From assembly GCF_000348785.1 (NCBI RefSeq), contig NC_020520.1:3968001-4032000 (forward strand): DNA of 64,000 nucleotides, read 5' to 3'. The notes beneath the pieces are model-generated. The model was given only the letters and a program-made list of their open reading frames with translations, had not been told where the DNA came from and searched no databases. Below are positions 25,863-55,777 of the stretch, piece by piece; within the stretch, counting starts at the first letter, position 1, and the number at the start of each line of letters is the position of its first letter. The DNA comes from Ilumatobacter coccineus YM16-304 (GTDB lineage: Bacteria > Actinomycetota > Acidimicrobiia > Acidimicrobiales > Ilumatobacteraceae). The position numbers and the translations under genes were made by a program.

Positions 25863-28800
25863 ATGAAACGCCTGCTCGCGATCGTCCCCCTGCTGGTCGG
25901 CCTCCTGGTGATCTCGCCGATCGGTTCGACCACCACGAGCGCCGCGGCGCTGCCGGGCAAAACGGTCGTGGCCGGCCGCGACCACAGCTGTGCGGTGCTC
26001 ACCGACGGCACGATCGAGTGCTGGGGTCGAAACGATCGAGGACAACTCGGTCGAGGCACGATCACGGCGGTGGATGAGCCACCAGCTCCCGTGGTCGGGA
26101 TCTCCGACGCCGAATCGGTGGCGGTGGGCGACCTCTTCACCTGCGCTGTCCACGTGACCGGCGACGTGTCGTGCTGGGGCCTCAACGGCGGTCGCCTCGG
26201 TGACGGTGTCACCGCCCAGACCAGTGTGTCGATGCCACAGACCGTGCCGGGCCTGGCTCCAGCGGAGAGCATCTCGGCCGGAACGTCGTTCGCGTGCGTC
26301 GTCCACGTCGACCTCACCGCGTCGTGCTGGGGATCGAGCAACGTCGACGGCCAGATCGGCAACGGCACGGTGACCGGCTCGGTCGAGGCCACTCCGACGC
26401 CCGTGGTCGGTCTCAGCGACGTCGCGCTCCTCGACTCCGAGGATCGGCACACCTGTGCGCTGCTCGGCGACACGACGGTGCGCTGCTGGGGCAACAACTT
26501 CTCCGGCCAACTCGGGGACGGCACCTCCGGAACCGACTCGGGCACCCCGGTCACGGTCGCCGGACTGTCGGGCGTGGTCGACATCGGCGTCGGGAAGTCG
26601 CACTCGTGCGCCGTCCTCGACGACGGCACGGCGATGTGTTGGGGCAACGGCAGCAACGGCGGATTCGGTGTCGGCAACACCGCCAGCTCACCGACGCCGG
26701 TCGTCGCGCTGGGTGTGGCCACAGCGATCAGCATCGACGCCGGCGACCGCGTGACGTGCGCCGTCCTGACGTCAGGCGAGCGAACCTGCAGCGGTTTCAA
26801 CAGCCACGGCATGCTCGGCGACGGCACCACCACGACCTCCGCGTCACCCGTCACGCTGGCGACACCGGCCGACGTGGCGGAAGTGTCGCTCACCGAGCAG
26901 GCCGCGTGCTCGCGCAGCGCAGCCGGAGCGGTCCACTGCTGGGGCCGCAACTCGCACGGCGAAGTCGAGTTCGGTGGCGTCATGTCGAATCCGAGCCCGT
27001 CGGCGCTCACGCTCAACGCACCGGCTGCCATCGACATCGACCAGTACAACCTCTGTCTCGTCGACAATTTGGCGCAGGTCCGATGCCGGGGTGCCAACAG
27101 CTCCGATCAACTCCAGAACGGAACCGGGCAGGCCAGCGATGCGTTCGTGACCATCACCGGGGTCTCCGATGCCAGCGACGTCGCCGTCGGTTCGACCCAT
27201 GCGTGTGCGCGACGCACGACGGGCGACATCGTGTGCTGGGGCAATGACAATTCCGGCCAGCTCGGCGACGGCGTCGGCGTCAGCACCGGCGTCGTCACCG
27301 TCTCGGGAGTCACCGCGGCGACCGAGGTCGCTGCAGGAGGCCAGACCACCTGCGCGATCGAAGGCGGCGCGGTGAAGTGCTGGGGCAACGGTCTCTCCGG
27401 CCAGCTCGGCAACGGCGCCTTCGCCCAGTCCGAGACACCCGTGACCGTGTCGGGCATCGCATCGGCGACGAAGGTCGCCGTCGGCAACAATCACGTGTGC
27501 GCCATCGACGGCGGCGCCGTCAAGTGCTGGGGATCAGGGCTCCAAGGCCAGTTGGGCGACGGCAACCAAGCCTCGTCGAACGTGCCGGTCACGGTGACCG
27601 GCATCACCGATGCGACCGACATCGTCGCGGGGTCGACGCACAGCTGTGCGATCACGGGCACGGGTCAGGCGGAGTGCTGGGGTTCAGCGGTGTACGTCGG
27701 CGATGGAAGCTTCGGCTTCGCCACCGAACCCGTCGACGTCCTCGGGGTGACCGACGCGAGCGAGTTGGCCGCCGGACAGAGCGGCTCGTGTGCACTGCGC
27801 ACCGGAGGCGCCGTGTCGTGCTGGGGGCAGAACTCTCACGGCCAGATGGGCGACGGCACGCTGATCGACGCACCGACGCCGGTGACGGTGGCCGTTCCGT
27901 CCGGGGTGGTGTCGATCGCCGGATACGACTCCTTCTGCGTGGCGACTGCAAGCGCCGTCGCCTGCTGGGGCCGCAACGACGACGGCGAGACGGGCGGTGT
28001 CCCGCTCGCACTGTCGCCCGATCCGGTCGCACTCAGCGGGCCGGCGGCAACCCCCACGACGACGACCACCACCACAACGACCACGACGACCACGACCACG
28101 ACGACCACGGTGCCGGGCAGCACGACGACGGTGCCGGGTGGCACGACGCCGACCACGGTTCCCGTGGGTCCAAGCGGTTCCACGGTGTTCGCACCGGTCG
28201 CGCCGGCCCGGCTGCTGGAGAGCCGAGTCGGCGTCGGCCTCACCACGATCGACGGACAGCAGCAAGGCGTCGGCCGGCAAGGCGACGGTTCGGCAGTGAC
28301 CGTGGACATCGCCGGTCGGGCCGGCGTTCCGGCCGATGCGACGGCCGCGGTGGTCAACATCACGGCGATCCGCCCGGCCGGCACCGGCTACGCCACCGGC
28401 CATCCCTGCCTCGACGATCCGCCGCTCACGTCGAGCCTCAACTACAGCGCCGGCGTGAGCCTCGGCAACGAAGTGATCGTCGAACTCGACGACGACGGCA
28501 ACGCCTGCCTGTTCCTGTCGACCGAGACCGACGTTGCGGTCGACGTGGTCGCCTACCTCCCGGCGGGAGCGGCCTACTCCCCCGTCGGCCCGGCTCGGTT
28601 GGCCGACACCCGCACGACGCCGGCAGCAGCGACCGTCGACGGCCTGTTCGAGGGTGACGGCACGTTGCAGCCGCAGAGCGAGTATCTCGTCGAGGTGACG
28701 GGACGGGCCGGGGTGCCGGAGTCGGCCACCGCAGCAGTCGTCAACGTCACGGCGATCCGTGCTGCGGGCGTCGGATACTTCACCGTCCATCCGTGCCTCG

Positions 28801-29330
28801 ACCCGGCGCCGAACACGGCCAGCCTCAACTACACCGCCGGGGCCAACCGCGGCAACGAGATCATCGCCCCGCTGAGCGCCGACGGCTCCATCTGCGTGTT
28901 CACCTCGGCGACCACCGACCTCTCGATCGACGTCGTCGGCTACATCGACGGCAGCACCTACGCCGCCTTCGGGCCGGTTCGGCTGCTCGACACCCGACCA
29001 GGCCAGACGACCGACGACGGAGCGTTCGCCGGGCTCGGCAAGCGGACGGCAGGCTCGACGGTCGAACTCGACGTGGCCGGGCGAGTGGGTCTGCCCGACG
29101 ACCTGGCCACCGCGATCATCAACGTCACCGCGATCGCCGCCGACGGCATCGGTTACGCCACGGTGCACCCGTGCCTCGACGACCCGCCCAACGCCGCCAG
29201 CCTCAACTTCGTACCGGGCGTCAACGGCGGCAACGAGGTCGTCGCCGAGGTCGACGACGACGGACGGATCTGCATCTACACCAGCGCCGACGTCCACCTC
29301 ACCGTCGACCTCGCCGGCCACACCACCTGA
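25863..29330 (+). CDS. secreted RCC1 double beta-propeller protein 1, triple C-terminal module
   Basis: 1155 residues from ATG 25863; ATG 25854 is in frame. A signal peptide (MKRLLAIVPLLVGLLVISPI...SAAA) leads into 14 RCC1-type repeats of ~50 residues (about 35-715). Each has the form CAVL-x-DG-x-x-x-CWG-x-N-x-x-GQLG-x-G. RCC1 propellers have seven blades, so 14 suggests two propellers. Two Cys per blade, 10-11 residues apart, imply disulfides in an exported protein. In repeat 8 the CWG Trp is lost (CRGANSSDQL). A poly-Thr linker (about 730-760, ending VPGSTTTVPGG) joins three tandem ~125-residue modules (about 776-1155; PARLLESR, VVNITAIRPAGTGY, PCL, SLNY, CLFLST, VDVVAYLP). It ends at the module with no LPxTG or TM. 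First of three tandem RCC1 paralogues; ligand unknown. Confidence 0.88.
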   Translation: MKRLLAIVPLLVGLLVISPIGSTTTSAAALPGKTVVAGRDHSCAVLTDGTIECWGRNDRGQLGRGTITAVDEPPAPVVGISDAESVAVGDLFTCAVHVTGDVSCWGLNGGRLGDGVTAQTSVSMPQTVPGLAPAESISAGTSFACVVHVDLTASCWGSSNVDGQIGNGTVTGSVEATPTPVVGLSDVALLDSEDRHTCALLGDTTVRCWGNNFSGQLGDGTSGTDSGTPVTVAGLSGVVDIGVGKSHSCAVLDDGTAMCWGNGSNGGFGVGNTASSPTPVVALGVATAISIDAGDRVTCAVLTSGERTCSGFNSHGMLGDGTTTTSASPVTLATPADVAEVSLTEQAACSRSAAGAVHCWGRNSHGEVEFGGVMSNPSPSALTLNAPAAIDIDQYNLCLVDNLAQVRCRGANSSDQLQNGTGQASDAFVTITGVSDASDVAVGSTHACARRTTGDIVCWGNDNSGQLGDGVGVSTGVVTVSGVTAATEVAAGGQTTCAIEGGAVKCWGNGLSGQLGNGAFAQSETPVTVSGIASATKVAVGNNHVCAIDGGAVKCWGSGLQGQLGDGNQASSNVPVTVTGITDATDIVAGSTHSCAITGTGQAECWGSAVYVGDGSFGFATEPVDVLGVTDASELAAGQSGSCALRTGGAVSCWGQNSHGQMGDGTLIDAPTPVTVAVPSGVVSIAGYDSFCVATASAVACWGRNDDGETGGVPLALSPDPVALSGPAATPTTTTTTTTTTTTTTTTTTVPGSTTTVPGGTTPTTVPVGPSGSTVFAPVAPARLLESRVGVGLTTIDGQQQGVGRQGDGSAVTVDIAGRAGVPADATAAVVNITAIRPAGTGYATGHPCLDDPPLTSSLNYSAGVSLGNEVIVELDDDGNACLFLSTETDVAVDVVAYLPAGAAYSPVGPARLADTRTTPAAATVDGLFEGDGTLQPQSEYLVEVTGRAGVPESATAAVVNVTAIRAAGVGYFTVHPCLDPAPNTASLNYTAGANRGNEIIAPLSADGSICVFTSATTDLSIDVVGYIDGSTYAAFGPVRLLDTRPGQTTDDGAFAGLGKRTAGSTVELDVAGRVGLPDDLATAIINVTAIAADGIGYATVHPCLDDPPNAASLNFVPGVNGGNEVVAEVDDDGRICIYTSADVHLTVDLAGHTT

Positions 29331-29350
29331 CCTCCCTCCGAGCCCGCCAA

Positions 29351-29461
29351 GTTTGTGTGACCGAAACCGCGCCCCACACCCACCATCGGTCACACAAACC
29401 CCGGGGCGGCGAATCTGTGTGACCGAAACCGCGCCCCACACCCAGAATCGGTCACACAAAC
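29351..29461. repeat. tandem pair of TGTGTGACCGA inverted repeats (pair A)
   Basis: Copy 1 has 14-bp arms GTTTGTGTGACCGA (29351-29364) and TCGGTCACACAAAC (29386-29399). Copy 2 has 11-bp core arms at 29416-29426 and 29448-29458. Both share a ~21-nt loop around CCGCGCCCCACACCCA. It starts 20 bp past the first RCC1 gene; pairs B and C follow the other two. Confidence 0.9.
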
Positions 29462-29509
29462 CGAGAGCCGGGGCGGTGGCTGGTTCACGGCGGGGTGGCG
29501 GATGGTGCG

Positions 29510-29515
29510 TACGGT
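29510..29515 (+). promoter_or_regulatory. leaderless -10 hexamer (TACGGT)
   Basis: TACGGT ends 6 nt before ATG 29522; no Shine-Dalgarno. The third RCC1 gene, in contrast, has a strong one. Confidence 0.5.
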
Positions 29516-29521
29516 CGGGCC

Positions 29522-32500
29522 ATGAGCACCACCTCGGATCCGACCTCGCGTCGACTCGGCGCACTCATCACCTCGGCCATCCTCGCAATCGCCGCCGTGG
29601 CGCTCGTCGTCGCGCCCACACCGAACCCCGCGTCGGCCATGCTCGACGTCGACGGCACGATCGCCGTGTCGACCTCGACCGCGTGCGCAGTGCTCACGTC
29701 GGGAGGAATCGAGTGCTGGGGAGGAAACGAATCCGGCCAACTCGGTCGCGGGTTCACGTCACTCACCGAACCACCGGGAACCGTCGATTCGATCAGCACC
29801 GCGACCGCCGTCGCGACCGGCACGAACCACACCTGCGCGCTCCTCGCAACGCAGACGGTGTCGTGCTGGGGCGAGAGCTTCCGTGGCCAACTCGGCGACG
29901 GCACCACCGGAGGCAGCAGCCAGCCCACGCCGGCGGCGGTTCCGGGCCTCGGCGGTGTCGTGCAACTCGCCGCCGGAAACAACCACACGTGCGCACTCAC
30001 CGAGGGCGGGCAGGTGATCTGTTGGGGCGACAACTTCGACGGACAACTCGGCAACGGCACCATCGGCGGCGACGACGGGACGCCGACCGCCGTGGCCGGC
30101 ATCGACTCGGCCGTGTCGATCGGCGTCGGCAGCAGCCGCACCTGTGCCGTGCTCGACGACGCAACCGTACGGTGCTGGGGTTCGAACGTGGGCGGCGCGC
30201 TCGGCAACGGCGACACCGTCGACTCCGGATCGCCCGTGGTGGGGGGCGGACTGACCGGCGTCGCCGAAGTCGCCCCCGGCTTCGGCTTCACCTGCGCTCG
30301 CACCGTCGCCGGCACGGTGAGCTGCTGGGGTGACAACACGGTCGGGCAACTCGGCGATGGCAACCGACCGGTCGCGTCGTCGGTCCCGGTCCCCGTTCCG
30401 GGCGTGTCGGGCGTCGTCGACATCGCCGCCGCCGCAAGCACGCTCTGTGTCCTCACCGCCGCCGGCGACCGCTGGTGCTGGGGAGCGAACGGCCGCGCCG
30501 AGTTGGGTGACGGCACGCTCACCGACGTCGGCAGTCCGCTCCAACTCTCCGATCTGCCCGACGCCCAGGCGCTGGCTGCAGGGGGCAACACGTTCTGCGC
30601 GGTCCGCGACGCCGGCTCGGTGTCGTGCTGGGGCGACAACGCCGACGGTGAAGCCGTCGGACCCGGCGTGAAGCGGAATCTGCTGCCCGCCGTCATGTCG
30701 CCCACCACACCAGCCTCGATCGGCGGCGGCATCAACCACGTGTGTGCCGTACTCGGCGACGGGTCGGTCGCATGCGCCGGACGCAACTCCAACGAAGAGC
30801 TCCAGAACGGCTCGCTGGTGCCGAGCGACGCACTGGTCGTCGTGCCCGGGGTCGACGATGCGATCGAGGTGTCCGTCGGCAACTACCACGGCTGCGCGCT
30901 CGACACGGCCGACGAGGTGACCTGCTGGGGAGCGAACTTCAACGCGCAACTCGGCGTCGGCGTGGGCAGCAACGCCAACGGCATCGCCGATGTCGGGTTG
31001 TCCGGCATCACCCAGGTGTCGGCAGGCGGCAGCCATACGTGTGCCGTCCGACCGGCGGCGGGGCCCGACGACGACCAACTCTGGTGTTGGGGACGCAACC
31101 AGTTCGGACAGCTCGGCAACGGCAGCAACGTCGTCGGCAACACGCCGGTCGAGGTGCTCCGAGACTGGTACGGCCTCGAACGCGTGAGTGTGGGTGCCGA
31201 ACACACCTGCGCGCTCGACGACGGCGAAGCCTTCTGCTGGGGACAGGGCACGTCCGGGCAGCTCGGCAACGGATCATTCACCGACAGCAACGTGCCCGTC
31301 GAGGTCGACGGCATCGGCGCAGCCATCGACATCTTCGCCGGCAATCGACACAGTTGCGCGATCACCGGCAGCGGCCAGGTGTACTGCTGGGGCTTCACCA
31401 CGTTGATCGGTGGCGGAGGCTCGTCGGCCGTGCCGCAGACGCTGCCGATCACGAACGCCGTGGAACTCGCCGGCGGGCCCGATCACACGTGTGCGCTCCT
31501 CGACGACGGCACCGTGTCGTGCTGGGGGTCGGGAGGCAACGGCGGGCTCGGCAACGGGACCACCGGACCAGGGTTCGCGCCCGTGGCCGTCACGGGCCTG
31601 ACCGGCGTGACCGACCTGAGCAGCGGTGATCAGACGTGTGCGCTCACCGCCTCGGCGATCAACTGCTGGGGCTCGAACGAGTTCGGCGAGACCGGCGCCT
31701 TCCCGTTCGTCCTGGCCCCGACGGCGATCGCGCTCTCCGGTGCGGTGCCGGCGACCACCACCACGACCACGACCACGATGCCGGACGGCAGTTCGACGAC
31801 CACGCCGGGGGGCACGACCACCACGGTGCCGGACGCGGGCACGGCGTCGCCACTCATCATCCCGGTCGATCCGGCCCGCCTGCTCGACACACGCCCGACC
31901 GGATCGACGATCGACGACGAGCACGTCGCACGCGGCCGTCTCGATCCTGCCGACGAGATCGCACTCCACGTCGCCGGGCGGGCCGGAATCCCCGCGGGGG
32001 CATCTGCCGCCGTGCTCAACGTGACCGCGATCGGGCCCGCCGGCGTCGGTTACGTCACGGCTCACCCCTGCCTCGAGCCGCGGCCGCTCTCGTCCAGTCT
32101 CAACTACACCCCCGGCGTCAACCTCGGCAACGAAGTGATCGTCGAACTCGACGACGACGGCAACGCCTGTCTCTTCACGTCGGCATCGACACACCTGGCG
32201 GCCGACGTCGTCGCCTACCTCCCTGCCGACCGAGGCTTCACGGCCGTCGGTCCGGCGCGCCTCGCCGACACCCGAACGTCGTCGGCAGCCGAAACCATCG
32301 ACGGCCGCTTTCTCGGACGCGGCACGCTCGCCGCAGGTGACGAGTACGAGGTCGAGATCACCGGCCGGTCCGACGTTCCCGCCGATGCCGACGCCGTGGT
32401 GGTCAACGTCACGGCGATCCGCGCCACCGGAACGGGCTACTTCACCGTCCACCCCTGCCTCGACGACCGGCCGAACGCCGCGAGTCTCAACTTCGTCGCG

Positions 32501-32998
32501 AGCGTCAACCGCGGCAACGAGATCATCGCCCCGCTCAGCGCCGACGGCACCGTGTGCGTGTTCACCTCGACGGCGAGCGATCTCTCGATCGATGTCGTGG
32601 GCCACATCACCAGCGAGCGCTACACGCCCGTCGAACCCGCCCGGCTGCTCGAGACGCGAGACGGACCCGGGCTCGACACCGCGGACGGCGTGGCGAGCGG
32701 CATCGGCAAACAGACCGCCGGCAGCACCGTACGGCTCGATGTGGCCGACCGACTCGGCATCCCGTCGGACGCCGACACCGTCACCATCAACCTCACCGCG
32801 ATCCAAGGCGAGTCGGTCGGCTACGCGACGGTGCATCCGTGTCTCGACACGCCGCCCAACGCCGCCAGCCTCAACTTCGTGCCCGGCGTGAACGGCGGCA
32901 ACGAGATCATCGCCGAAGTCGACGCCAACGGACAGATCTGCATCTACACCAGCGCACCCGTCCACCTCACCGCCGACATCGCCGGCTACACCACCTGA
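29522..32998 (+). CDS. secreted RCC1 double beta-propeller protein 2, triple C-terminal module
   Basis: 1158 residues. A signal peptide (ALITSAILAIAAVALVVAP...ASA) and 14 Cys-paired RCC1 repeats (about 45-735) are present. Repeat 8 again lacks the Trp (CAGRNSNEEL). The linker is TTTTTTTMPDGSSTTTPGG-like (about 743-775), and three modules follow (about 777-1158). Modules begin PARLLDTR, PARLADTR or PARLLETR and end VDVVAYLP, IDVVGHIT or TADIAGYTT. The last ~45 residues are the same as in RCC1 protein 3, and the DNA is nearly identical there and past the stop. This points to recent duplication or gene conversion. The start is ATG 29522 by the leaderless hexamer. It is presumably surface-exposed; binding partner unknown. 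Confidence 0.88.
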   Translation: MSTTSDPTSRRLGALITSAILAIAAVALVVAPTPNPASAMLDVDGTIAVSTSTACAVLTSGGIECWGGNESGQLGRGFTSLTEPPGTVDSISTATAVATGTNHTCALLATQTVSCWGESFRGQLGDGTTGGSSQPTPAAVPGLGGVVQLAAGNNHTCALTEGGQVICWGDNFDGQLGNGTIGGDDGTPTAVAGIDSAVSIGVGSSRTCAVLDDATVRCWGSNVGGALGNGDTVDSGSPVVGGGLTGVAEVAPGFGFTCARTVAGTVSCWGDNTVGQLGDGNRPVASSVPVPVPGVSGVVDIAAAASTLCVLTAAGDRWCWGANGRAELGDGTLTDVGSPLQLSDLPDAQALAAGGNTFCAVRDAGSVSCWGDNADGEAVGPGVKRNLLPAVMSPTTPASIGGGINHVCAVLGDGSVACAGRNSNEELQNGSLVPSDALVVVPGVDDAIEVSVGNYHGCALDTADEVTCWGANFNAQLGVGVGSNANGIADVGLSGITQVSAGGSHTCAVRPAAGPDDDQLWCWGRNQFGQLGNGSNVVGNTPVEVLRDWYGLERVSVGAEHTCALDDGEAFCWGQGTSGQLGNGSFTDSNVPVEVDGIGAAIDIFAGNRHSCAITGSGQVYCWGFTTLIGGGGSSAVPQTLPITNAVELAGGPDHTCALLDDGTVSCWGSGGNGGLGNGTTGPGFAPVAVTGLTGVTDLSSGDQTCALTASAINCWGSNEFGETGAFPFVLAPTAIALSGAVPATTTTTTTTMPDGSSTTTPGGTTTTVPDAGTASPLIIPVDPARLLDTRPTGSTIDDEHVARGRLDPADEIALHVAGRAGIPAGASAAVLNVTAIGPAGVGYVTAHPCLEPRPLSSSLNYTPGVNLGNEVIVELDDDGNACLFTSASTHLAADVVAYLPADRGFTAVGPARLADTRTSSAAETIDGRFLGRGTLAAGDEYEVEITGRSDVPADADAVVVNVTAIRATGTGYFTVHPCLDDRPNAASLNFVASVNRGNEIIAPLSADGTVCVFTSTASDLSIDVVGHITSERYTPVEPARLLETRDGPGLDTADGVASGIGKQTAGSTVRLDVADRLGIPSDADTVTINLTAIQGESVGYATVHPCLDTPPNAASLNFVPGVNGGNEIIAEVDANGQICIYTSAPVHLTADIAGYTT

Positions 32999-33029
32999 CC
33001 CAGCCCCGAGGCTGTACCCCTCATCCCGG

Positions 33030-33141
33030 GTTTGTGTGACCGAATCCGCGCCTCACTCGCGGAATCGGTCACCCAAACCTCGGGGCGCTGCATCTGTGTG
33101 ACCGAAAGCGCGGGCCACACCCGCATTCGGTCACACAAACC
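33030..33141. repeat. tandem pair of TGTGTGACCGA inverted repeats (pair B)
   Basis: Copy 1 arms are 33030-33043 and 33065-33078, with one A-to-C change (TCGGTCACCCAAAC). Copy 2 core arms are 33095-33105 and 33127-33137. It lies between RCC1 genes 2 and 3. The A-to-C change is shared with pair C and absent from pair A. Confidence 0.9.
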
Positions 33142-33196
33142 GGGGTGGGACGCGTCGATTTACGCGCGGTTAACACGGGGCGAGGAAGGTGACGTC

Positions 33197-36100
33197 ATGA
33201 GTTCCGTCGCATCACGCCCGACCCGATCTCGCCGCCCGTCCGACCCGGCGGCCCGGGCGAAACGTGTCGTCGTTGCGTTCGCGATCGCTGTCGGCTCGGC
33301 CGTGGTCGCCGTGTTCGCGGCGGCACCGGCGGCGTCCGCGGTCGCGATCGGGTCCGTCGACGTCGGCTACAGCTCCACCTGCGCGGTCATGGCCGACTCG
33401 ACGGTGCAGTGCTGGGGTACGGCAATGGCGGGGCAGCTCGGAGATGGCGTCGACGACGACTCCATCATCGTTTCGACGCCGACCACCGTCCCGGGAGTCA
33501 CCGGAGCACAACAGGTGACCGTCGGCGAGGAACACGCGTGCGCACGTCTCGCCGACGCCACGGTCACGTGCTGGGGGCGGAACGGCGAAGGCCAGGTCCA
33601 GCCGTCGACCGCAGGATCCGGCGTCGAACTGCCGCAGACCGTCCTCGGCGTCGCGGGCGTTGCCCAGGTCGTCGCCGGCGGGTTCCACACGTGCGTCATT
33701 CTCGACGACGCCACTGTCGAGTGTTGGGGAGACAACAACGACGGCCAGATCGGCATCGACCCCGGCACCACCGACACCGTCACCGCTCCGACACCCGTCG
33801 CCGGCATCGTCGACGCCGTGGCGCTCGACGCGCACTACGACCACACGTGTGCACTCGAATCGGACGGCGACGTCTGGTGCTGGGGCTCGAACTCGGAGGG
33901 CGAACTCGGTGATGGCACGACCGACGACAGCCACACCCCCGTCGCCGTCGGGCTCAGCGGCCCGGCGATCGGCATCGCGACCGGCGACCAGTTCAGCTGC
34001 GCGGTCGTCACCGGCGGCACGATCGAGTGCTGGGGCAGCAACAGCGACGGGCAGTTGGGCGACGGAACCACCGACGAACACGCCGACCCGGCTCCGGTGA
34101 TCGGCCTCTCCGGCAGCGCCGTCGAGGTGGCCGCCGGCCAATCCGCCACCTGTGCTCGGCTCACCGACGGCTCGCTCCAGTGCTGGGGCCAGACCGAATC
34201 GGGACGCCTGGGCAACGGCATCGCCGACGAGACCTACCAGCTGTCGCCATCGACGGTGATCGGCATCACCGGTGCGACGCACGTGGCCGGAACCAGCTTT
34301 CACTTCTGTGCCATCACCGCGTCCGACGGACTCGCGTGCTGGGGTGAGGGACGAGAAGGGCAGCTCGGCGTCGACACGCCGGCATGGGTCACGCGTGCTC
34401 GGCTCGTCGATGCCCGCACCTTCGACCAGGTGACCGTCGGGCCGAGCTTCACGTGTGCGCGCGCCGGAGGCACCATCGAGTGCGCCGGAGAGAACTCGGC
34501 CGGACAGCTGGGCAATGGCACCGCATCGCGGGCCGACACGTTCGGCCCGGTGACCGGTGTGGCCGACGCCACCGACGTCGATGCGGCATTCCAGCACGTC
34601 TGCATCGCCCGCAGCGATGGCTCCGCAGCATGTTGGGGTGACGGCGGATTCGGCCGGCTGGGCAACGGAGCGAGCAGCGATCACTCCACGCCCGTCGCCG
34701 TGTCGACCATCACCGACGTGACGGAGATCAGCACCGGCTACACCAACAGCTGTGCGCGAACCGACGACGGCATCGATGAAGAACTGTGGTGCTGGGGCCG
34801 AGGGAGCTCCGGACAAATCGGGAACGGGACGAGCTCGACCACGAACAGCACACCGCAGCTCGTCTCCGGCATCAGTGACGGCAAGCGCATCAGCGCCGGG
34901 CACGACCACGCATGCGGCATCGTGAGTGCCGGAGGCATCCGCTGTTGGGGTGCCAACGGCAACGGGCAGCTCGGTGACGGCACCAACACGGCGTCCGACG
35001 TGCCGGTCGTCGCCGCGTCCGGCACCGTCGCCAACCAGGTGTCGGCGTCCGATCGCCACACCTGCGTCCGCGCGGCCGGAGCCGAGGTGTGGTGTTGGGG
35101 AGCCGACTACGACGGTCAGCTCGGCAATGGGCCAGGCACCGACACGGGGCCCACCGCGATGGTCGACGTCGGCAACGCCGCCACCAATCCAGCCACCGAC
35201 GTCGCAGCGGGGGTGTCGCACACCTGTGTACTACTCACCGACGAGACGGTGACCTGCACCGGATCGAACACACGCGGCCGCTTGGGTGACGGCACCGACG
35301 TCTCTCGCGACCAGGTCACCGACGGCAGCGGCGCCCCGGTGCGCGTCGTCGACGAGAGCGGCACGGTGCTCACCGGCCTGATCTCGATCGACGCCTGGAA
35401 CCACACGTGCGCAGTCCGCAAGGCCAGCGCCGGCGGCGGCCTCTTCTGCTGGGGTGACAACGAGTTCGGTTCATGGGGTGATCCGCCGTTCAGCGCCGTG
35501 CCCGTCGCCGTCCCACTGACCCAGAACGTCGGTGCGACCACCACCACGACGACCACCACCACGACCACGACCACGACCACGGTGCCCACCGACCCGCCGA
35601 GCGACGCGACGCTGTTCGTCCCGGTCGCACCCGCCCGCCTCGTCGAGTCGCGCACGTCCCCCGGCACCGGAACGGTCGACGGCGAACAGCAGGGCATCGG
35701 ACGACTCGATGACGGTGACGCCGTGACGGTCGACGTGGCCGGCCGAGTCGGAGTACCCGACGATGCGGTCGCCGCCGTGCTCAACATCACGGCGATCCGA
35801 CCTGGCGGGGTCGGCTACTTCACCGCCCATCCGTGTCTGAGCCCGCCGCCCACCACGTCGAGTCTCAACTTCGCCGCCGGCGTCAGCCTGGGCAACGAGG
35901 TGGTCGTCGAACTCGATGCCGACGGCAACGCGTGTTTGTTCACGTCGACCGACACCGACGTCGCCGTCGACATCGTGGCCTACCTCCCCGCCGGCGCGGC
36001 CTACTCCCCTGTCGGCCCGGCCCGGCTCGCCGACACTCGCCCCGCACCCGCCGGTGTGACGATCGACGGTGACTTCGCCGGCGACGGCACCCTCGACGGG

Positions 36101-36763: not shown

Positions 36764-36794
36764 CCCAGCCCCGAGGCTGTACCTCTCATCCCCG

Positions 36795-36905
36795 GTTTGT
36801 GTGACCGCATCCGCGCCCCACACCCACAATCGGTCACCCAAACCTCGGGGCGATGAATCTGTGTGACCGAAACTGCGCCCCACACCCACAATCGGTCACA
36901 CAAAC
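36795..36905. repeat. tandem pair of TGTGTGACCGA inverted repeats (pair C)
   Basis: Copy 1 arms are 36795-36807 and 36831-36843; copy 2 core arms are 36860-36870 and 36892-36902. It sits between the convergent stops of the third RCC1 gene (36763) and the methyltransferase (36931), where a bidirectional terminator would be expected. Confidence 0.9.
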
Positions 36906-36930
36906 CGGGGTGGGTCGGGCCGCGATGGGG

Positions 36931-37948: not shown

Positions 37949-37991
37949 CGCATCGCCGCAAACGGTGTCTGACACCGTTTGCGGCGATGCG
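37949..37991. repeat. 43-bp perfect palindrome with GGTGTCTGACACC core
   Basis: Two 21-nt arms (37949-37969 and 37971-37991) are perfectly complementary around a single T. The centre is GGTGTC-T-GACACC. It begins one base after the stop of the 37993 gene, consistent with a terminator lacking a U-run. Confidence 0.9.
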
Positions 37992-37992
37992 G

Positions 37993-41703: not shown

Positions 41704-41710
41704 CGGCGAG

Positions 41711-41716
41711 AACCTA
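41711..41716 (-). promoter_or_regulatory. leaderless -10 hexamer (TAGGTT)
   Basis: Minus-strand TAGGTT ends 7 nt before ATG 41703; no Shine-Dalgarno. It is the same hexamer as before GTG 9995. Confidence 0.55.
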
Positions 41717-41758
41717 GCCAGCTCGCCGTTTCTCATGCGCAGAGTTCCAACCGGCCCA

Positions 41759-41787
41759 CGTCATCCGGTGTCTGACACCGGATGACG
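41759..41787. repeat. 29-bp perfect palindrome with GGTGTCTGACACC core
   Basis: 14-nt arms (41759-41772 and 41774-41787) around one T; outer part CGTCATCC. It lies 10 bp past the stop of the gene at 41798-45361 and 42 bp upstream of the next gene's -10 hexamer. Confidence 0.9.
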
Positions 41788-41797
41788 CAGGGGGCGG

Positions 41798-44700
41798 TCA
41801 GGTGGGGATGTAGCCGACGACGTCGACGGTGAGGTCGGTGGCGGCCGACGAGAACACGCACACCGTGCCGTCGGCCGAGAGCTTGGCGACCAACTCGTTG
41901 CCGACCACAGCGCCGGCCGACCCGTAGTTGAGCGACGACGCCAACGGACGATCACCACACGGAGACACCGTCACGTACCCACGACCAGACGGATTCACCG
42001 CCGTGATGTTCATCACCACGGCACCAACACCAGATGCTGGAACACCGGCACGACCCGCGATGTCGACCTCGACGAAGGACCCCGCAACCACACGCCCGAC
42101 GCCCTGCTGATCTCCGTCGACCGTCGCATCACCCGACCGTGTCGCGTACACCCGAGCCGGATCGAGCGAGCGAGCGGCGCTCGACGACGGGACGTACCCG
42201 ACGACATCGACGGTCAGATCGGTCGACGCCGACGAGAACACGCACACCGTGCCGTCGGCCGAGAGCTTGGCGACCAACTCGTTGCCCACCACCGCGCCGG
42301 CCGACCCGTAGTTGAGCGACGATGCCAACGGACGATCACCACACGGAGACACCGTCACGTACCCGCGACCCGACGGATTCACCGCCGTGATGTTCATCAC
42401 CACCGCACCGACACCCGAACCCGGCACACCGGCGCGACCCACGATGTCGACCTCGACGGACTCACCCGCCGAGATCCGCCCCGTCGCCTCCTGCTCCCCA
42501 TCGACCGTCTCGTCCGACGCTCGAGTCGCATACACCCGAGCCGGATCGACCGACACCACCCCGCTCGTCGACGGGACGTACCCGACGACATCGATCGTCA
42601 GGTCGGTCTCGGCCGACGTGAACACGCACACCGACCCCGTCCCGGACAGCTTGGCCACCAACTCGTTGCCGACGACCGCGCCGGCCGACCCGTAGTTGAG
42701 CGACGAGGCCAGCGGACGATCGCCGCACGGTGACACCGTCACGTACCCACGACCCGACGGGTTGATCGCGGTCACGTTCATCACCACCGCCTTGGCGTCG
42801 CCGGCCACACCGGACCGACCGGCGATGTCGACCTCGACGACGTCGCCACCTGCGATGCGACCCTCCCCTTCGAACAGACCGTCGACCGTTTCGTCGGTCG
42901 AGCGCGAGGCGAACACGCGACCCGGTGTGAGCGACACGATCTCGCTCGCCGCAGGACCGACGACCGTCACGTCGAACGTCGTCTCCGACGTCAGCCCACC
43001 AGCGTCGGTCGCCGTGCAGGTGACCGTCGTGGTGCCGATCGGGAACGCCGACCCCGACGCCGGGAGGCATGCGACCGACGATGTGGTGTCGTCACGAAGG
43101 TCGAACGCCGTCGGCGTCGTGAACGAGACGGCTGCCGTCGACGCGCCGCTGGCCGCAGTCACCGAGATGTTGGCTCCGACCGAGGTGAACTCGGGACCGC
43201 GATCGATACGAACGGCGAAGACTCGATTGTTGATCGTCCGCAGCAGCACCGCGTCATCACTCGTGAGCAACGGCTGCGGGTCGTAGGCCAAGCCCGCTCC
43301 GCTGCCGAACGCCGTGTTGGACTCGGTCGCGACGCCGACGGTCGGTCGGTCTCCGACCATGAGCGTCGCTCCGTAGCGGCCGTCGAGGAAGGAGCTCGCG
43401 GCGATCACGTCGCCCGACTCGATCACGTTCGGCCCGTTCTGTCCGAGGCGGTAGCTCGCCGCCGGACCGATGAGGCTGTTCGAGGCCGACACGGGGCCGG
43501 CGAGTCCGGTCGTGCCGTCGATCCAGGTGATCGCGCCGGCGTCGGTGTGCGTGTCGGAATCCCAGTCGGAACTGACGACGATCGCGTTGCCGTTCGGCAA
43601 CGCCACGATGTCGTGGAACTCGGGGATCTCCTCCGAGCCGATCAGGTCGTTCGGACTGTCGCCATACAGACTCACGGTTCCGTCGAGCGATGAGCCCACG
43701 ACCCCGACCTCGCCGTCGGCCCACGTCACCGCACCAGAGTCGGTCACACCGAAACTGTCGAGATGCGGGCTCGAGATCAGATAGTTGCCGTTCGTGAGCG
43801 GCACGATCACGCGCGGCACGAAGTCGTCGACGTTCACGCCGACGAAACTGTTGCTCGGCGACACGAGGCCGGCGACGCCGCTCGTACCGCTCCCCCAGGT
43901 CGCCGCGCCGGCTCGGGTGTTCGCACCGTTGGCCCAGTGTGCGCTCTCGACGACGTAGTTGCCGTTGGTCAACGGAGTCACGCGCATGCCGACCCGGTCG
44001 AGTGTCTGCCCGCCGACGAGGCTGTTGGCGACCGACACGACGCCCGGCGCCGGGCCTGACCCGTCGCGCCACGTCGCTGCACCCGCGCCCGCGGCGCTGC
44101 CGTTCGACCATTCGACACTCGTGACGACGTAGTTGCCGTTGGTGAGCGCCGTCGCCGTACCCACCTCGTCGCCTGACGTCGATCCGATCAGCGAGTTGCT
44201 CGACGTGACGACACCCGAACTGGGGCCGGAACCATCGACCCACGTGACCGCGCCGACGTTCTCCGTCGACCCGTCGTCCCAGAGCGGGCTGGACACCGTG
44301 TAGTGCCCGTTGGACAATGCGGTCACCGTGCCGGTCGAGTCGTCGGCCGACTGTCCGATCGTGCTGTTCGCGGCGCTCACGACGCCGACCAGACCGGACT
44401 CACCGTCGCCCCAGGTGACCGCGCCGACGTTCGCGAACGGCCCGTCCCACCAGCCACTGGCCACCACATAGTGGCCGTTGGCGAGCGCAGTGATTCCGTA
44501 GATGCCGACTCGGTCGTCGATCGTGGATCCGACGAGGCTGTTCGCTGCGCTCACTTCGCCCGTCGCGCCGACAGCACCATCACCCCAGGTGGCAGCACCG
44601 ATGCGCTCGACCGGGCCGCCGCCATCCCAGTCAGGGCTCGCGACCACGTAGTTGCCGTTGGTCAGCACGGCAACCCCACGGCCACCGACCCGGTCATAGT

Positions 44701-45361
44701 CGCCGCTGCCGACGAGGCTGTTGCTCGCGCTCACCGGTCCCGAGATGCCGGTGTTGCCGGGTACCCACGTCACCGCACCTGCATCGACCACGCCGCCACG
44801 GTCCCAGTTGCGCCAACTCACCAGACCGTTCCCGTTCGCCAACACGGTGATGCGAGTGTCTCCGGCATCTCCGGTCGCCTCGCCGACGAGACTGTTCGAC
44901 GGAGCAACCGTTCCGTTCAACCCGGTGACCCCGTCGATCCACGTCGCTGCGCCCGCGTTCGGGGTTGCACCATTCGCCCAGTTTCGGCTGACGACCACGA
45001 CGTTCGAGTCGCCGACCTCGGCGATGAGTCCGTTGCCCACACGATCGTTCGACTGCGTGCCGGTGATGCGGCTGATGACCGAATCGTCGGTGCCGTCGTA
45101 GAGGTAGATCGCCCCGATGTCGGTCGCGAAGGCACCGTCGTGCATCGGATCGGTCACCACGTAGTTGCCGTTCGACAGGACGAGCAGCGTCGAGCCGAAC
45201 TGTGCACTTCCGCCGGGCCCGAGGATCTCGTCGCCCGTCACCGTCTGACTGGTCTCTGCCTGCAGCGTGGGCGCGGCGGTGATGATGAGCGCAGCTGCCG
45301 TGGCCATGGCCACCGCGATCCTGCCCCAGACGCTCACGGGATGATGGGGTCGTGTGGACAT
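41798..45361 (-). CDS. secreted NGNYVV/GAVTWG-repeat protein 2 with HYR domain and triple C-terminal module
   Basis: 1187 residues from ATG 45361, preceded by a full AGGAGG Shine-Dalgarno. A signal peptide (GRIAVAMATAAALIITAAPTLQA) leads into about 11 repeats as in protein 1 (LANGHYVVASGWWDGPFANV is typical). A HYR domain follows (SGSAFPIGTTTVTCTATDAG), then three C-terminal modules ending GYVP or GYIPT. The two paralogues share the opening (DLVGPAGS or EILGPGGS, then QFGSTLLVLSNGNYVVTDPM here). Parts of modules 2 and 3 (plus-strand 41940-42620) use GGT, GTT and GCA codons more than the rest of the gene. The role is probably surface display or adhesion (inference). Confidence 0.85.
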   Translation of the reverse strand: MSTRPHHPVSVWGRIAVAMATAAALIITAAPTLQAETSQTVTGDEILGPGGSAQFGSTLLVLSNGNYVVTDPMHDGAFATDIGAIYLYDGTDDSVISRITGTQSNDRVGNGLIAEVGDSNVVVVSRNWANGATPNAGAATWIDGVTGLNGTVAPSNSLVGEATGDAGDTRITVLANGNGLVSWRNWDRGGVVDAGAVTWVPGNTGISGPVSASNSLVGSGDYDRVGGRGVAVLTNGNYVVASPDWDGGGPVERIGAATWGDGAVGATGEVSAANSLVGSTIDDRVGIYGITALANGHYVVASGWWDGPFANVGAVTWGDGESGLVGVVSAANSTIGQSADDSTGTVTALSNGHYTVSSPLWDDGSTENVGAVTWVDGSGPSSGVVTSSNSLIGSTSGDEVGTATALTNGNYVVTSVEWSNGSAAGAGAATWRDGSGPAPGVVSVANSLVGGQTLDRVGMRVTPLTNGNYVVESAHWANGANTRAGAATWGSGTSGVAGLVSPSNSFVGVNVDDFVPRVIVPLTNGNYLISSPHLDSFGVTDSGAVTWADGEVGVVGSSLDGTVSLYGDSPNDLIGSEEIPEFHDIVALPNGNAIVVSSDWDSDTHTDAGAITWIDGTTGLAGPVSASNSLIGPAASYRLGQNGPNVIESGDVIAASSFLDGRYGATLMVGDRPTVGVATESNTAFGSGAGLAYDPQPLLTSDDAVLLRTINNRVFAVRIDRGPEFTSVGANISVTAASGASTAAVSFTTPTAFDLRDDTTSSVACLPASGSAFPIGTTTVTCTATDAGGLTSETTFDVTVVGPAASEIVSLTPGRVFASRSTDETVDGLFEGEGRIAGGDVVEVDIAGRSGVAGDAKAVVMNVTAINPSGRGYVTVSPCGDRPLASSLNYGSAGAVVGNELVAKLSGTGSVCVFTSAETDLTIDVVGYVPSTSGVVSVDPARVYATRASDETVDGEQEATGRISAGESVEVDIVGRAGVPGSGVGAVVMNITAVNPSGRGYVTVSPCGDRPLASSLNYGSAGAVVGNELVAKLSADGTVCVFSSASTDLTVDVVGYVPSSSAARSLDPARVYATRSGDATVDGDQQGVGRVVAGSFVEVDIAGRAGVPASGVGAVVMNITAVNPSGRGYVTVSPCGDRPLASSLNYGSAGAVVGNELVAKLSADGTVCVFSSAATDLTVDVVGYIPT

Positions 45362-45532
45362 GGAACGCAGCCTCCTGTTTCGCACCAGGCACACACCGGT
45401 GGTGCCGCTCTTCATCGTGCGTGATCCGGTCGCCGCTGTCATGAGTAGGAACTACTCACACGCCACGTCCGGACTCCCACGAGCGGGCCGCCGGTATCGT
45501 CCGCCCCTCGCAAACCACAGGAAGCAGCCAAC

Positions 45533-45856: not shown

Positions 45857-45874
45857 TCCCGCCGACCGATCATC

Positions 45875-45918
45875 CGGTGTCAGACACAGAATGACTCGTC
45901 ATTCTGTGTCTGACACCG
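45875..45918. repeat. 44-bp palindrome with two TGTCAGACA/TGTCTGACA cores
   Basis: Perfect 21-nt arms (45875-45895 and 45898-45918) around a 2-nt loop. Each arm carries its own GGTGTCAGACAC core, so it looks like two elements head to head. It separates the convergent stops at 45856 and 45933. Confidence 0.9.
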
Positions 45919-45932
45919 ATTGACGTCGGCCC

Positions 45933-48900
45933 TCAGGCGGGGATGTAGCCGACGACGTCGACGGTGAGGTCGGTCGCCGCGCTCGTGTACACGCACACGG
46001 TGCCGTCGGTGGAGAGCTTGGCGACCAGCTCGTTGCCAACGACCGCACCAGCGGCGCCGTAGTTCAACGACGACGCCAACGGCCGCGTCTCGCACGGATA
46101 CGTCGTGATGAACCCGCGACCCGTCGGGTTGATCGCCGTGATGTTCATCACCACCGCACCCGCCGACGCCGGCACCCCAGCACGACCCGCGATCTCGACC
46201 TCGACGAACTCACCCGTCGCGATCTGACCGGTCGCCTCCTGCTCACCGTCAACCGTCTCATCGGTCGCTCTCGTCGCGTACACACGAGCCGGATCCAACG
46301 ACGCCGCCGCACTGCTCTCCTGGATGTAGCCGACCACGTCAACCGTCAGATCCGTCTCCGCCGACGAGAACACACACACCGTCCCATCAGCCGACAGCTT
46401 CGCGATCAACTCGTTACCGACCACCGCGCCAGCCGACCCATAGTTCAGCGACGACGCCAACGGGCGATCACCACACGGGAACACCGTCACGTAGCCACGA
46501 CCCGACGGATTGATCGCCGTGATGTTCATCACCACCGACTTCGCATCCCCAGCAACACCAGCACGACCAGCCAGATCGACCTCCACGAACTCACCCGCCG
46601 GGATCCGACCCGTCGCCTCCTGCACACCATCAACCGTCTCATCCGATGCGCGAGTCGCATACACACGACCCGGATCCAACGACACGACCTCCGACACCGC
46701 CGGCACAAAACCCACCACATCGATCGACAGATCGGTCTCGGCCGACGAGAACACACACACCGCACCCTCACCGCTCAGCTTCGCCACCAACTCATTACCA
46801 ACCACAGCACCAGCAGCGCCATAGTTCAACGACGACGCCAACGGCCGCGTCTCACACGGATACGTCGTCACATAACCACGACCCGACGGATTGATCGCCG
46901 TGATGTTCATCACCACCGACTTCGCATCATCGGCAACACCAGCACGACCCGCGATCTCGACCTCCACGAACTCACCCGCCTCGATCCGACCACCACCCTC
47001 GAACAACCCATCCACCGTCTCATCCGACACCCGCGACGCAAACACACGACCCGGCGTCAACGACACCACCTCCACCGACACATCCGGATCCGGGTCGGGG
47101 TCGGGGTCAGGCTCGACGGTCGGCTCGTCGCCGAGGTAGAAGACGGTCGGTTCGGTGCCGAACAGTTCGGTGTCGGCACGGGCATAGATGACGTCGCCGA
47201 TCAGCGTCGGGCGCGCCTGGTAGAAGCCGTGCAATTCGTAGTCGAACAGCGGTCTCGCTGCGTCGACCTCACCCTTGGTGCGCCACACCCTGGTGGTGTT
47301 CGCCGGTGTGGGGGCGAACCCACTCACTCCTTCGAACGCTTCTTCCATCTCGGTCACGAAGAACAGTTCGTCGTCGTACACGCCGAGCAAATCGAACTCG
47401 TCGGTGGTCGTCTCCTCGATGACCGTCATCACGGTGCCGTCGATCGACACGATCTGGCGAGTGCGCGTTGGTTCCTCGAGGCGGTTGCCGCCCATATTTC
47501 CCTCGCCACGCGTCAGGCCGAGAACCATCGCACCAGCAAGTTCGAGGTCGCCGTTCTCCCCCGGCCCCGCATCGATCCGGCTGATGGGATCTCCCGCCGG
47601 CACGGTGATCGGGGCTGCAGAATCGTCGAGCCCGACTTGAAAGAACGCGTACTCGTCGCCGAGCATGCTCCTCGGCTCGGTGAATTCCTCGGCGCCCCCG
47701 CCGTCGTCCTCGTAGGCCACGGCGACAAGCTGCTGGTCGGTGGCATAGAGCTCTTGAATCGGGAGGTCGTTCAGACCAGCGACGGCTGCGGTGCCCGCAA
47801 CCGTGCCATCGGTACGGAACACGATCTCATCGCCATCTCCGAGCAAACTGACGCCACCACCGCCTTCACCTGTGTCGACGTCGCGCATGACGTACAGACG
47901 TCCACCGAACTCCACGGCGTCCCCGCTCGCCTCGAAGTCGGTGATGAGCAGTGTCGTCGATCCGGTTTCCGTGTCGACTGCATGCAGTTCGTCGGTTGGT
48001 CCGTCGTCGGTCTGCACGAGAAGACGGCCGCTGATCGCTCCGACGATGCTGCTCGTCTCGAACTCACCGAACATCGTCGCCGTCGTGCCGCCCGGACGAA
48101 CGACCCAGAGGTCACCGTTCGAACGGAAGAAGTAGCTGCCGTTGACTTCGACCCCGCTGCTGAAGTTGCCGCCCAGATCACCCGGACGCGTGTCGGCGAG
48201 CAGGTGAGTGCCCGCAGCCGTTCCATCGGAGATGAATGGCTCGTAGCCGATGTCCGGGCGGTCGGCCTCGAACACGAACCGGTCGCCGAACGGTGCGATC
48301 CGTCGCGGCCGCGACCCCTCCGCACCCGGAAGAATGTCGGCCACCAGCCGAACCTCGTCGGCGGTTCGGTCGTGAATCCACAGCTCGTCGCCCGTCGCCG
48401 AGCTCGATGCAGTGAAGACGGCGTCGGCGCCGAACTGGGAGAAGTCGTTCGGGAACGACGACTGGGTGATGACGGTGTTGATCGAGGTCACTTGTGACGT
48501 AGCGGTCCCGTCGGTGAACCACACTTGTTGACCGGACACACCATCGTCGGCAACGAAGTACCAACCGTCATCCACCGCCACGGGCGCCGAGAAGCCGATC
48601 GACGGCGCCGGCCCTGGGAAGATGTCGGCAATCTGGCGCGTGCCACCGACGGTCCCGTCACTGATCCACGGTTCGAAGCCGTCTCCGGCTTCGACGGCCA
48701 GAAGTGCCGCGCTTCCATCGAGGGCCGCTACCGGCGACGCCCCAGTACCGCCGATTGCCACGGTGCCGGCCTCGGTCCCGTCACTGACCCAGAACTGATA
48801 GTCGCCGACGCGCTCGACGAAGACTGCGTTGCCGTTCGAGAGTCCCACGGTGCTGCCGATGTTCGGCCCCGACTTCACGAGCTGCGACGTCGCAGTCGAG

Positions 48901-49868
48901 TCGGCGATCGTGTACAGGCCGTTGATCCGCCCCTCCCACGCGAAGTTCCCGACGAGGTCCAAGCCCGTGACGTTTCCGGCGTCCGACACCACCTCGATCG
49001 TGTCGGTCGCCGGGGTTGCGGTCGATTCGGAGATCCGCCGGACCAGGTTGAAGTTCGAAGCATCTCGAGACACGAAGTACAGCGAGCCGTCGTCCGACGT
49101 CTGGATGAGAGAGGGGTTGCCATCGGCGAGGCCCGGACGCGTCTCGAACATCGTCAGGCCCGTGGTCGGGTCGTAGCGATGCAGCTCGTTGCCATCGACC
49201 CCGTTGTCGGCACTGAAGTAGAGCGCCTCTCCCCCGCCGGTGACCGGGGCGACGGTAAGACCCGTGGGGTAGGACGACGGGGCGCCAGGGTCGATGTCGA
49301 GCACCGTTTCGGTCCCTGCAGCGGTGAGGTCGGTTCGCATGAGCTCCGAACCCGTTCCCTCGTCGCCGCGGAAGTAGATCTCACCGTCGAACTCCGTGAA
49401 CTGGCTCGGATACGAGCTCTCGCTTCCGTCGTAGACGTCGATCATCTCCCACGACTCGGCGACGACGTCGATGACCAAGAGCTCGTAGCCGATCGAATCA
49501 CGCCTGGCGGCGCCGATCAGCTGGTTCCCGCTCATCAACCCGAGCTCCATGCTCGTGATGCCGTCGGTCGAGTCGATCAGGGTCTCGGCGGCACCGGTCG
49601 CGCGGTCGATCTTCCACACCACATAGGTGTCATCCGATGATCCGAGGTCACCTGTGTCCACCGGCCGCTCTCGGCTGATCGCGAAGACGTGCGTGGCGTT
49701 CGCGAACAACTGACGGGACTCGATGCCGTACGGACTCGTGTCGAGGTCGGTCAGGAGCAGCGGTTCACGGCCTTCGACCGGGAGCGCTGCGACGGGTGGT
49801 TCGGTCGCGGCCAGCCCGGCGAGGAGCGACACCACGGTTGCGCATGAGATGAGGGAGAACTTCTTCAC
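45933..49868 (-). CDS. secreted ELW-x-SDGT-type beta-propeller protein with triple C-terminal module
   Basis: 1311 residues from GTG 49868. A signal peptide (MKKFSLISCATVVSLLAGLA) opens a ~880-residue region of propeller-like repeats. Units such as QFWVSDGTEAGT, EPWISDGTVGGTRQIADIFP, QVWFTDGT and EPFISDGTAAGTHLLADTRP follow the E-L-W-x-(T/S)-DGT-x-x-GT pattern. An Asp/Pro linker (EPDPDPDPDPD, about residue 920) leads to three C-terminal modules of the second subtype (about 935-1311). Modules 1 and 2 and the start of 3 (plus-strand 46130-47080) use GGT, CGT, GAT and GTG codons, unlike the GGC, CGC, GAC and GTC preference of the propeller region. This suggests exchange with a foreign copy. Function unknown; likely cell-surface. 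Confidence 0.83.
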   Translation of the reverse strand: MKKFSLISCATVVSLLAGLAATEPPVAALPVEGREPLLLTDLDTSPYGIESRQLFANATHVFAISRERPVDTGDLGSSDDTYVVWKIDRATGAAETLIDSTDGITSMELGLMSGNQLIGAARRDSIGYELLVIDVVAESWEMIDVYDGSESSYPSQFTEFDGEIYFRGDEGTGSELMRTDLTAAGTETVLDIDPGAPSSYPTGLTVAPVTGGGEALYFSADNGVDGNELHRYDPTTGLTMFETRPGLADGNPSLIQTSDDGSLYFVSRDASNFNLVRRISESTATPATDTIEVVSDAGNVTGLDLVGNFAWEGRINGLYTIADSTATSQLVKSGPNIGSTVGLSNGNAVFVERVGDYQFWVSDGTEAGTVAIGGTGASPVAALDGSAALLAVEAGDGFEPWISDGTVGGTRQIADIFPGPAPSIGFSAPVAVDDGWYFVADDGVSGQQVWFTDGTATSQVTSINTVITQSSFPNDFSQFGADAVFTASSSATGDELWIHDRTADEVRLVADILPGAEGSRPRRIAPFGDRFVFEADRPDIGYEPFISDGTAAGTHLLADTRPGDLGGNFSSGVEVNGSYFFRSNGDLWVVRPGGTTATMFGEFETSSIVGAISGRLLVQTDDGPTDELHAVDTETGSTTLLITDFEASGDAVEFGGRLYVMRDVDTGEGGGGVSLLGDGDEIVFRTDGTVAGTAAVAGLNDLPIQELYATDQQLVAVAYEDDGGGAEEFTEPRSMLGDEYAFFQVGLDDSAAPITVPAGDPISRIDAGPGENGDLELAGAMVLGLTRGEGNMGGNRLEEPTRTRQIVSIDGTVMTVIEETTTDEFDLLGVYDDELFFVTEMEEAFEGVSGFAPTPANTTRVWRTKGEVDAARPLFDYELHGFYQARPTLIGDVIYARADTELFGTEPTVFYLGDEPTVEPDPDPDPDPDVSVEVVSLTPGRVFASRVSDETVDGLFEGGGRIEAGEFVEVEIAGRAGVADDAKSVVMNITAINPSGRGYVTTYPCETRPLASSLNYGAAGAVVGNELVAKLSGEGAVCVFSSAETDLSIDVVGFVPAVSEVVSLDPGRVYATRASDETVDGVQEATGRIPAGEFVEVDLAGRAGVAGDAKSVVMNITAINPSGRGYVTVFPCGDRPLASSLNYGSAGAVVGNELIAKLSADGTVCVFSSAETDLTVDVVGYIQESSAAASLDPARVYATRATDETVDGEQEATGQIATGEFVEVEIAGRAGVPASAGAVVMNITAINPTGRGFITTYPCETRPLASSLNYGAAGAVVGNELVAKLSTDGTVCVYTSAATDLTVDVVGYIPA

Positions 49869-55776: not shown

Positions 55777-55777
55777 G

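Follow-up and report, generated by a model that had tools for sequence, protein, structure and literature searches.

The window analyzed in this work, i.e., the whole stretch of 64,000 nucleotides (nt) spanning positions 3,968,001 to 4,032,000 of the Ilumatobacter coccineus YM16-304 contig NC_020520.1, harbors six genes (P0001 to P0006) whose products, built on three scaffold types, all end in three tandem copies of the same module of about 125 residues, and a seventh gene (P0007) whose product ends in a single divergent copy. We regard the chances as roughly even that the triple represents a pseudo-trimeric, non-covalent envelope-binding cassette, disulfide-stabilized or disulfide-free, with a probably beta-rich fold. 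If so, the three modules would act as one functional unit, placed terminally in an exported protein, and the probable ligand of this unit would be some repetitive constituent of the envelope of the producing cell itself, either a wall polymer or a surface polysaccharide, bound non-covalently. The binding would keep passengers as diverse as propellers, adhesive repeats and hydrolases at the cell surface, their probable location, and the proteins endowed with a single module might build an equivalent unit as homotrimers, via collagen-like, tail-fibre-like or coiled-coil segments. The features in question are the following (positions are those of the window):

25395-29330, + strand: P0001, open reading frame (ORF) with RCC1 propeller scaffold (Pfam)
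28179-28556, + strand: P0001 module 1
28566-28943, + strand: P0001 module 2
28950-29321, + strand: P0001 module 3
29495-32998, + strand: P0002, ORF with RCC1 propeller scaffold (Pfam)
31847-32218, + strand: P0002 module 1
32228-32605, + strand: P0002 module 2
32612-32989, + strand: P0002 module 3
33032-36763, + strand: P0003, ORF with RCC1 propeller scaffold (Pfam)
35606-35983, + strand: P0003 module 1
35993-36370, + strand: P0003 module 2
36377-36754, + strand: P0003 module 3
37993-41736, - strand: P0004, ORF with DUF5650 repeats and HYR domain (Pfam)
38773-39144, - strand: P0004 module 1
38389-38763, - strand: P0004 module 2
38005-38379, - strand: P0004 module 3
41798-45442, - strand: P0005, ORF with DUF5650 repeats and HYR domain (Pfam)
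42578-42949, - strand: P0005 module 1
42194-42568, - strand: P0005 module 2
41810-42184, - strand: P0005 module 3
45933-49868, - strand: P0006, ORF with ELWxxDGT repeats (NCBIfam)
46707-47078, - strand: P0006 module 1
46326-46697, - strand: P0006 module 2
45945-46316, - strand: P0006 module 3
61250-62722, + strand: P0007, ORF with signal of the twin-arginine translocation (Tat) type, glycine-rich repeats and one C-terminal module
62336-62713, + strand: P0007 single divergent module

The module and its copy number

A first-pass annotation of the window had described six proteins with three scaffold types and one shared triple C-terminal module; the Pfam and NCBIfam matches, together with the delimitation of the modules, confirm this description. 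Indeed, each of P0001 to P0006 carries three tandem modules, whose measured length of 124-126 residues agrees with the value of about 125 given at that time, and each ORF stops 2-3 residues past the last of them. The alignment of these 18 modules contains 25 invariant columns, so that their likeness is not due to chance. The divergent copy that had been noticed at the end of P0007 was also recovered: it covers residues 363-488 of 490 and reaches 82 bits with one module profile, falling below threshold with a second, broader one. The Tat motif of the same protein scores 16.1 bits, just under the NCBIfam cut-off of 16.7. Three loci akin to P0007 (L149, L137 and L095) share its Tat-like signal, glycine-rich repeats and single C-terminal module, and possess a coiled-coil leader ahead of the Tat-like signal.

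The search of 34 diverse modules against Pfam at an E-value of 0.1 matched no family; neither PF04122 nor PF00395 was matched by these modules at that threshold or by P0001 to P0006, and some Pfam matches inside the window modules stayed under the cut-off (best E 0.009). NCBIfam yielded no significant family (two one-member matches only, E 0.02-0.03), and the best match of the 18 window modules to PHROGs, which carries the function label unknown, was not significant either (E 0.0029, 3 of 18 members). Nothing significant emerged from the PDB sequences, where the top hit, to an agarase chain, was partial (E 0.01), and no description of the module was found by searching the open PMC full-text literature.

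Two columns of the module alignment may be occupied by cysteine: both are filled in 269 of 610 modules (about 44%), neither in 337 and only one in 4. The fact that the two cysteines are gained or lost as a pair is the mark of a disulfide inside the module, which would agree with an oxidizing site beyond the membrane. The linkers are short, no more than 10 residues separating the profile envelopes in 385 of 388 cases. Residues differ according to the position of the module within the triple, their summed information exceeding that of all 300 shuffles in this genome and barely so in a second genome of the family (G031); at column 97, this genome has mostly L/V, R and G/V at positions 1, 2 and 3, respectively.

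Whether the module always occurs in threes had been raised as a check in the first-pass annotation. This is true of 156 of the 198 complete module ORFs from all sources, the remaining ones carrying one (35), two (six) or five copies (one), and none four; incomplete (cut) ORFs were kept apart (38 with three copies, 7 with one, 6 with two), and the two-copy and single-copy tallies include broken pieces. In three of the six two-copy ORFs the neighbouring copies are nearly identical, the pattern expected of a collapsed assembly or of a recent loss; among the others, one lies in a frameshifted locus and one in a locus with reported stops, and the two-copy locus L096 has low module scores. The five-copy ORF consists of two degenerate copies and three good ones. 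By contrast, the number of RCC1 repeats varies freely in this genome; fn3 domains occur there once or twice per ORF (only six matches). The three-or-one rule suggests a trimeric binding unit, a reading absent from the first-pass annotation, and the geometry of the unit is probably that of a trimer.

The mean identity between modules of the same protein is 0.535-0.554, compared with 0.38-0.44 between proteins, and in the module tree 43 of 191 triples are monophyletic within their own protein, 30 of them with a support of at least 0.9. The copies have therefore been homogenized or re-made, which implies that recombination acts on the modules; despite this, the copy count remains three. According to a different interpretation, which we consider very improbable, the triple might be a passive spacer or a protease-resistant cap, devoid of a ligand and held at three copies by recombination or common descent. 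The homogenization fits this interpretation, as does a ring-closure coevolution test (see below) that lent no support for contacts between modules. However, recombination among free beads should spread copy numbers, whereas no ORF out of 198 has four modules and six out of 198 have two. The RCC1 repeats of the same genome do vary freely in number.

Position, passengers and single-copy relatives

The expectation that the triple might always be C-terminal did not hold. In complete triples it is C-terminal (no more than 40 residues after the last module) in 124 of 156 cases, N-terminal in 29 and internal in 3; when the cut ORFs are included (n = 194), the corresponding figures are 146, 42 and 4, with 2 undecided. 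Since ORFs were read from stop to stop, the stretch ahead of the module is an upper bound on its length. With 153 of the 156 complete triples at one of the two ends, the module is not mostly internal or alone, the pattern named beforehand as speaking against a retention or wall-binding function. In several loci an N-terminal triple precedes an RCC1 propeller, so that the order of the domains has been permuted.

No other anchor accompanies the triple at the C-terminal end. The absence of an LPxTG or transmembrane anchor, reported by the first-pass annotation for the window proteins, extends to the whole set: neither a strict LPXTG motif nor a membrane-like segment occurs in the last 60 residues of any of the 156 complete triples, and on these grounds anchoring by sortase was rejected. 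A looser LPXTG-type motif, without a membrane-like segment, was found in 3 of the 156, and no anchor was visible at the C-terminal end of the five longest proteins of this genome with an N-terminal triple. This genome contains three genes of the sortase family. In genome G000 (1065997-1072494; L071, L273), a gene with an N-terminal triple and DUF11-like repeats extends to 1070802; it is followed, on the opposite strand, by an ORF (1070866-1072494) with a sortase match.

The scaffold parts are highly diverse: with related Pfam models (e.g., the RCC1 ones) tallied separately, 39 families were recognized among 53 scanned parts of this genome (out of 54), and 59 among 76 scanned parts from other sources (out of 129). 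Among the matches listed are propellers, DUF11, cadherin-like domains, GDSL lipases and the peptidase families M36, M12 and S8, as well as M23, SpoIID, CAP and DUF1501; the passenger classes span propellers, Ig-like domains, lipases, proteases and wall hydrolases. The idea of a sorting, retention or wall-binding element displayed with interchangeable scaffolds, put forward in the first-pass annotation, is thus partly supported: the interchangeability (39 families here, 59 elsewhere) is well backed, and retention in part; a C-terminal sorting signal was rejected, since the triple is N-terminal in 29 of the 156 complete cases.

The same data concern a more general possibility, i.e., a sorting or secretion signal recognized by a dedicated machine, as in type IX secretion, where C-terminal domains are read by such a machine. 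An end module shared by unrelated cargo, in the absence of another C-terminal signal, is what one would expect from it. Nevertheless, besides the N-terminal triples, a signal-peptide-like segment is already present, according to a crude test, in 40 of the 54 triple proteins of this genome (the same test is positive in 49 of 67 in the collection and in 20 of 24 in G031), and we give very little credit to this possibility.

The passengers are also relevant to the idea that the triple is an outward adhesin or a carbohydrate-binding tip, which would grip external polysaccharides or particles and hold enzymes and propellers on their substrate. Hydrolases are frequent among the passengers, terminal binding modules are usual in secreted hydrolases, and the 156 complete triples show no further anchor. 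On the other hand, one and the same module is found on more than 50 paralogous passengers of one genome, wall hydrolases included, which suggests a single common target; moreover, a three-or-one rule is not known to be usual among carbohydrate-binding modules. The weak match to the agarase chain favors neither this tip nor envelope binding. On the whole we judge an outward tip unlikely.

As regards the single-copy proteins, 12 of 30 contain a collagen-like run, a tail-fibre-like motif or a coiled-coil pattern, vs. 3 of 156 triples (Fisher p 1.2e-8, kinship among proteins not being corrected for), even though nine times more sequence was scanned for these features in the triples; the three positive triples have coiled-coil-like windows. 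The 30 are the complete singles minus the loci L084, L153, L262 and L094 and the modules shorter than 95 residues. Collagen, BclA_C-type and phage tail-fibre segments are known to form trimers. In the module tree, six fibre-type singles and a collagen-type one fall in one clade, and three coiled-coil ones in another; being mutually related, the trimer-prone singles perhaps represent about four independent cases. Among 10 singles searched against Pfam, one matched Collagen, one BclA_C and one, below threshold, Trimer_CC; six had no match and one had a metal-binding motif. The PHROG matches of the single-copy proteins were weak, except for phrog_4013 in L063 (E 2.6e-11), which lies outside the module and carries the function label unknown.

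Genomic distribution and surroundings

Three-copy genes number at least 54 in this genome (4,830,181 bases, a single contig), six of them lying in the window; 48 are complete and 6 cut by stretch boundaries, in addition to which at least 11 ORFs have one module. The first search of the genome gave at least 150 module matches; since 150 of 270 candidates were scored, the totals for this genome are lower bounds. Read from stop to stop, the 59 complete module ORFs make up 3.6% of the chromosome. With the top candidates per genome scored, matches were obtained in 26 of 198 genomes of the class and in 23 of 396 of the phylum; in the same family, 10 of the 14 genomes listed had a match, the four without one being 1.7-2.0 megabases long, and G031 had at least 119 module matches (150 of 228 candidates scored). 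The named relatives, drawn from the best 80 of 102 loci picked up by short motifs, belong to Actinomycetota, Rudaea, one Stenotrophomonas record and metagenome-assembled genomes labelled Proteobacteria, Chloroflexi, Dormiibacterota and Acidobacteria. In Rudaea cellulosilytica, three ORFs each gave three matches, and four others gave a single weak one; of three weak singles scanned again, one was confirmed by the module profile.

Among 72,556 plasmid records, 15 matched, and the annotated relatives are labelled "hypothetical protein" or with the name of the passenger (cutinase, PKD domain protein). The plasmid relatives of the triple type (H1-H15) come from Streptomyces, Curtobacterium, Arthrobacter, Paenarthrobacter and Aeromicrobium, two of them being placed under an RHS-annotated gene. 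A phage origin was rejected: no match was found in phage records and no relative was confirmed in two viral contig scans.

The size of the paralog sets (at least 54 triples here and at least 119 module matches in G031) might be expected if the triples bound each other to form a surface layer, a sheath or a matrix, and the trimer-prone character of the single-copy relatives is also compatible with such a homotypic assembly. Genomes with one to three module proteins do exist, however, among those of which the top candidates were scored, and we hold this explanation to be distinctly unlikely.

Some data weigh against an envelope-binding pseudo-trimer. The ring-closure coevolution test, carried out on 191 triples, did not support a pseudo-trimer; homogenization confounds the test. 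In a closed ring all three antisymmetric correlations should be raised above the null (-0.13 to -0.14, standard deviation 0.02); the values were -0.08 (pair 1-2 with 2-3), -0.20 (1-2 with 3-1) and -0.16 (2-3 with 3-1), so that only the first one exceeds its null. The arginine at column 97 is not exclusive to one position, as it occurs two or three times in 11 of 138 triples from other genomes. The six two-copy ORFs and the five-copy one depart from the three-or-one rule, and 18 of the 30 singles, including a subtilase-like and a CAP-like protein, lack any trimer-associated feature. Lastly, the presence of the module in the Gram-negative Rudaea makes a ligand limited to Gram-positive walls unlikely.

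Concerning the gene starts, the listed one of P0001 is too early, a signal-peptide-like start being found near residue 157. A tandem pair of 62-nt units lies 3' of each RCC1 gene (29345-29468, 33024-33147 and 36789-36912); each unit is palindromic (TTTGTGTGACCG...CGGTCACACAAAC) and folds into a long hairpin, and the pattern recurs at about 11 sites of the genome. Because these pairs overlap them, the ORF starts at 33032 and 36853 are doubtful, and the real start of P0003 is probably downstream of the listed 33032. Other features of the window are the following:

8062-10125, - strand: ORF combining Anp1 (PF03452, E 3.2e-35) with a group 1 glycosyltransferase, an unexpected fusion
20788-20871, - strand: tRNA-Tyr
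50008-59320, - strand: respiratory complex I genes adjoining the module genes (three Proton_antipo_M, NADHdh and the 49-kDa subunit)

Comparison with known systems

The closest parallels to the proposed envelope-binding cassette are offered by CWB2 (PF04122) and SLH (PF00395). According to PMC4973711, 29 wall proteins of Clostridioides difficile, many of which are enzymes, bear the CWB2 motif, of about 100 residues, as a tandem triplet at the N- or C-terminal end; these constitute a large family of paralogs whose passengers vary and are in part enzymatic, anchored non-covalently, and the loss of any one motif releases the protein, all three being needed to anchor it. The module described here likewise forms tandem triplets at one or the other terminus (156 of 198 with three, 153 of 156 terminal). 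Unlike CWB2, it does not match PF04122, a family that a Pfam model search did not find in this genome, about 44% of its copies bear a cysteine pair of the disulfide type, and it has single-copy relatives with trimer-prone segments.

As to SLH, PMC8056022 reports that three copies fold as a pseudo-trimer, acting as one unit on a pyruvylated wall polymer, a behavior that might also apply to the present triples; in Deinococcus SlpA, according to PMC9388160, a trimer of single SLH motifs sits atop a homotrimeric coiled coil, thus paralleling the single-copy proteins. The present module differs in that it does not match PF00395 and is about double the length of SLH. This genome gave no hit for PF00395, for which 4 of 14 controls were positive, nor for the pyruvyl transferase family PF04230, positive in 8 of 14 control genomes; the latter search tests the enzyme family only.

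The likeness to sortase substrates consists in a common signal on varied surface proteins, which for LPXTG is C-terminal; the present triples differ in lacking, in their last 60 residues, the strict motif and the membrane-like segment. LysM also provides repeated binding modules on exported proteins; these are, according to PMC4973711, beads on a string whose strength tracks their number, whereas the count of the present module is fixed.

If the proposed cassette is real, the surface proteome of this species and of its relatives among the Acidimicrobiia would become readable from sequence, many "hypothetical protein" entries would acquire a shared part whose role can be tested, and a display tag for these bacteria, together with a starting point for the search of the ligand, would be at hand. 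It would also point to a recurrent design principle, in which unrelated modules converged on the same number, three in a chain or one in each chain of a trimer, for holding proteins on the envelope.

No match to PF00395, PF04122 or PF04230 having been found in the genome, we take the module as an unrelated solution to the same task; that it solves the task of SLH and CWB2, being a member of neither and unrelated to them by sequence, has in our estimate a probability of about one half. Slightly short of an even chance is the stronger proposal that, next to SLH and CWB2, there is a third and independent system of envelope anchoring by three copies, with three modules per chain or one per homotrimer chain, serving more than 50 secreted proteins of one marine actinobacterium, spread to other phyla and directed to a ligand other than the pyruvylated SLH polymer. 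The holding of proteins on the envelope by three-copy modules is known; what might be new, and what we advance tentatively by analogy with these systems, is an unnamed module family performing this task.

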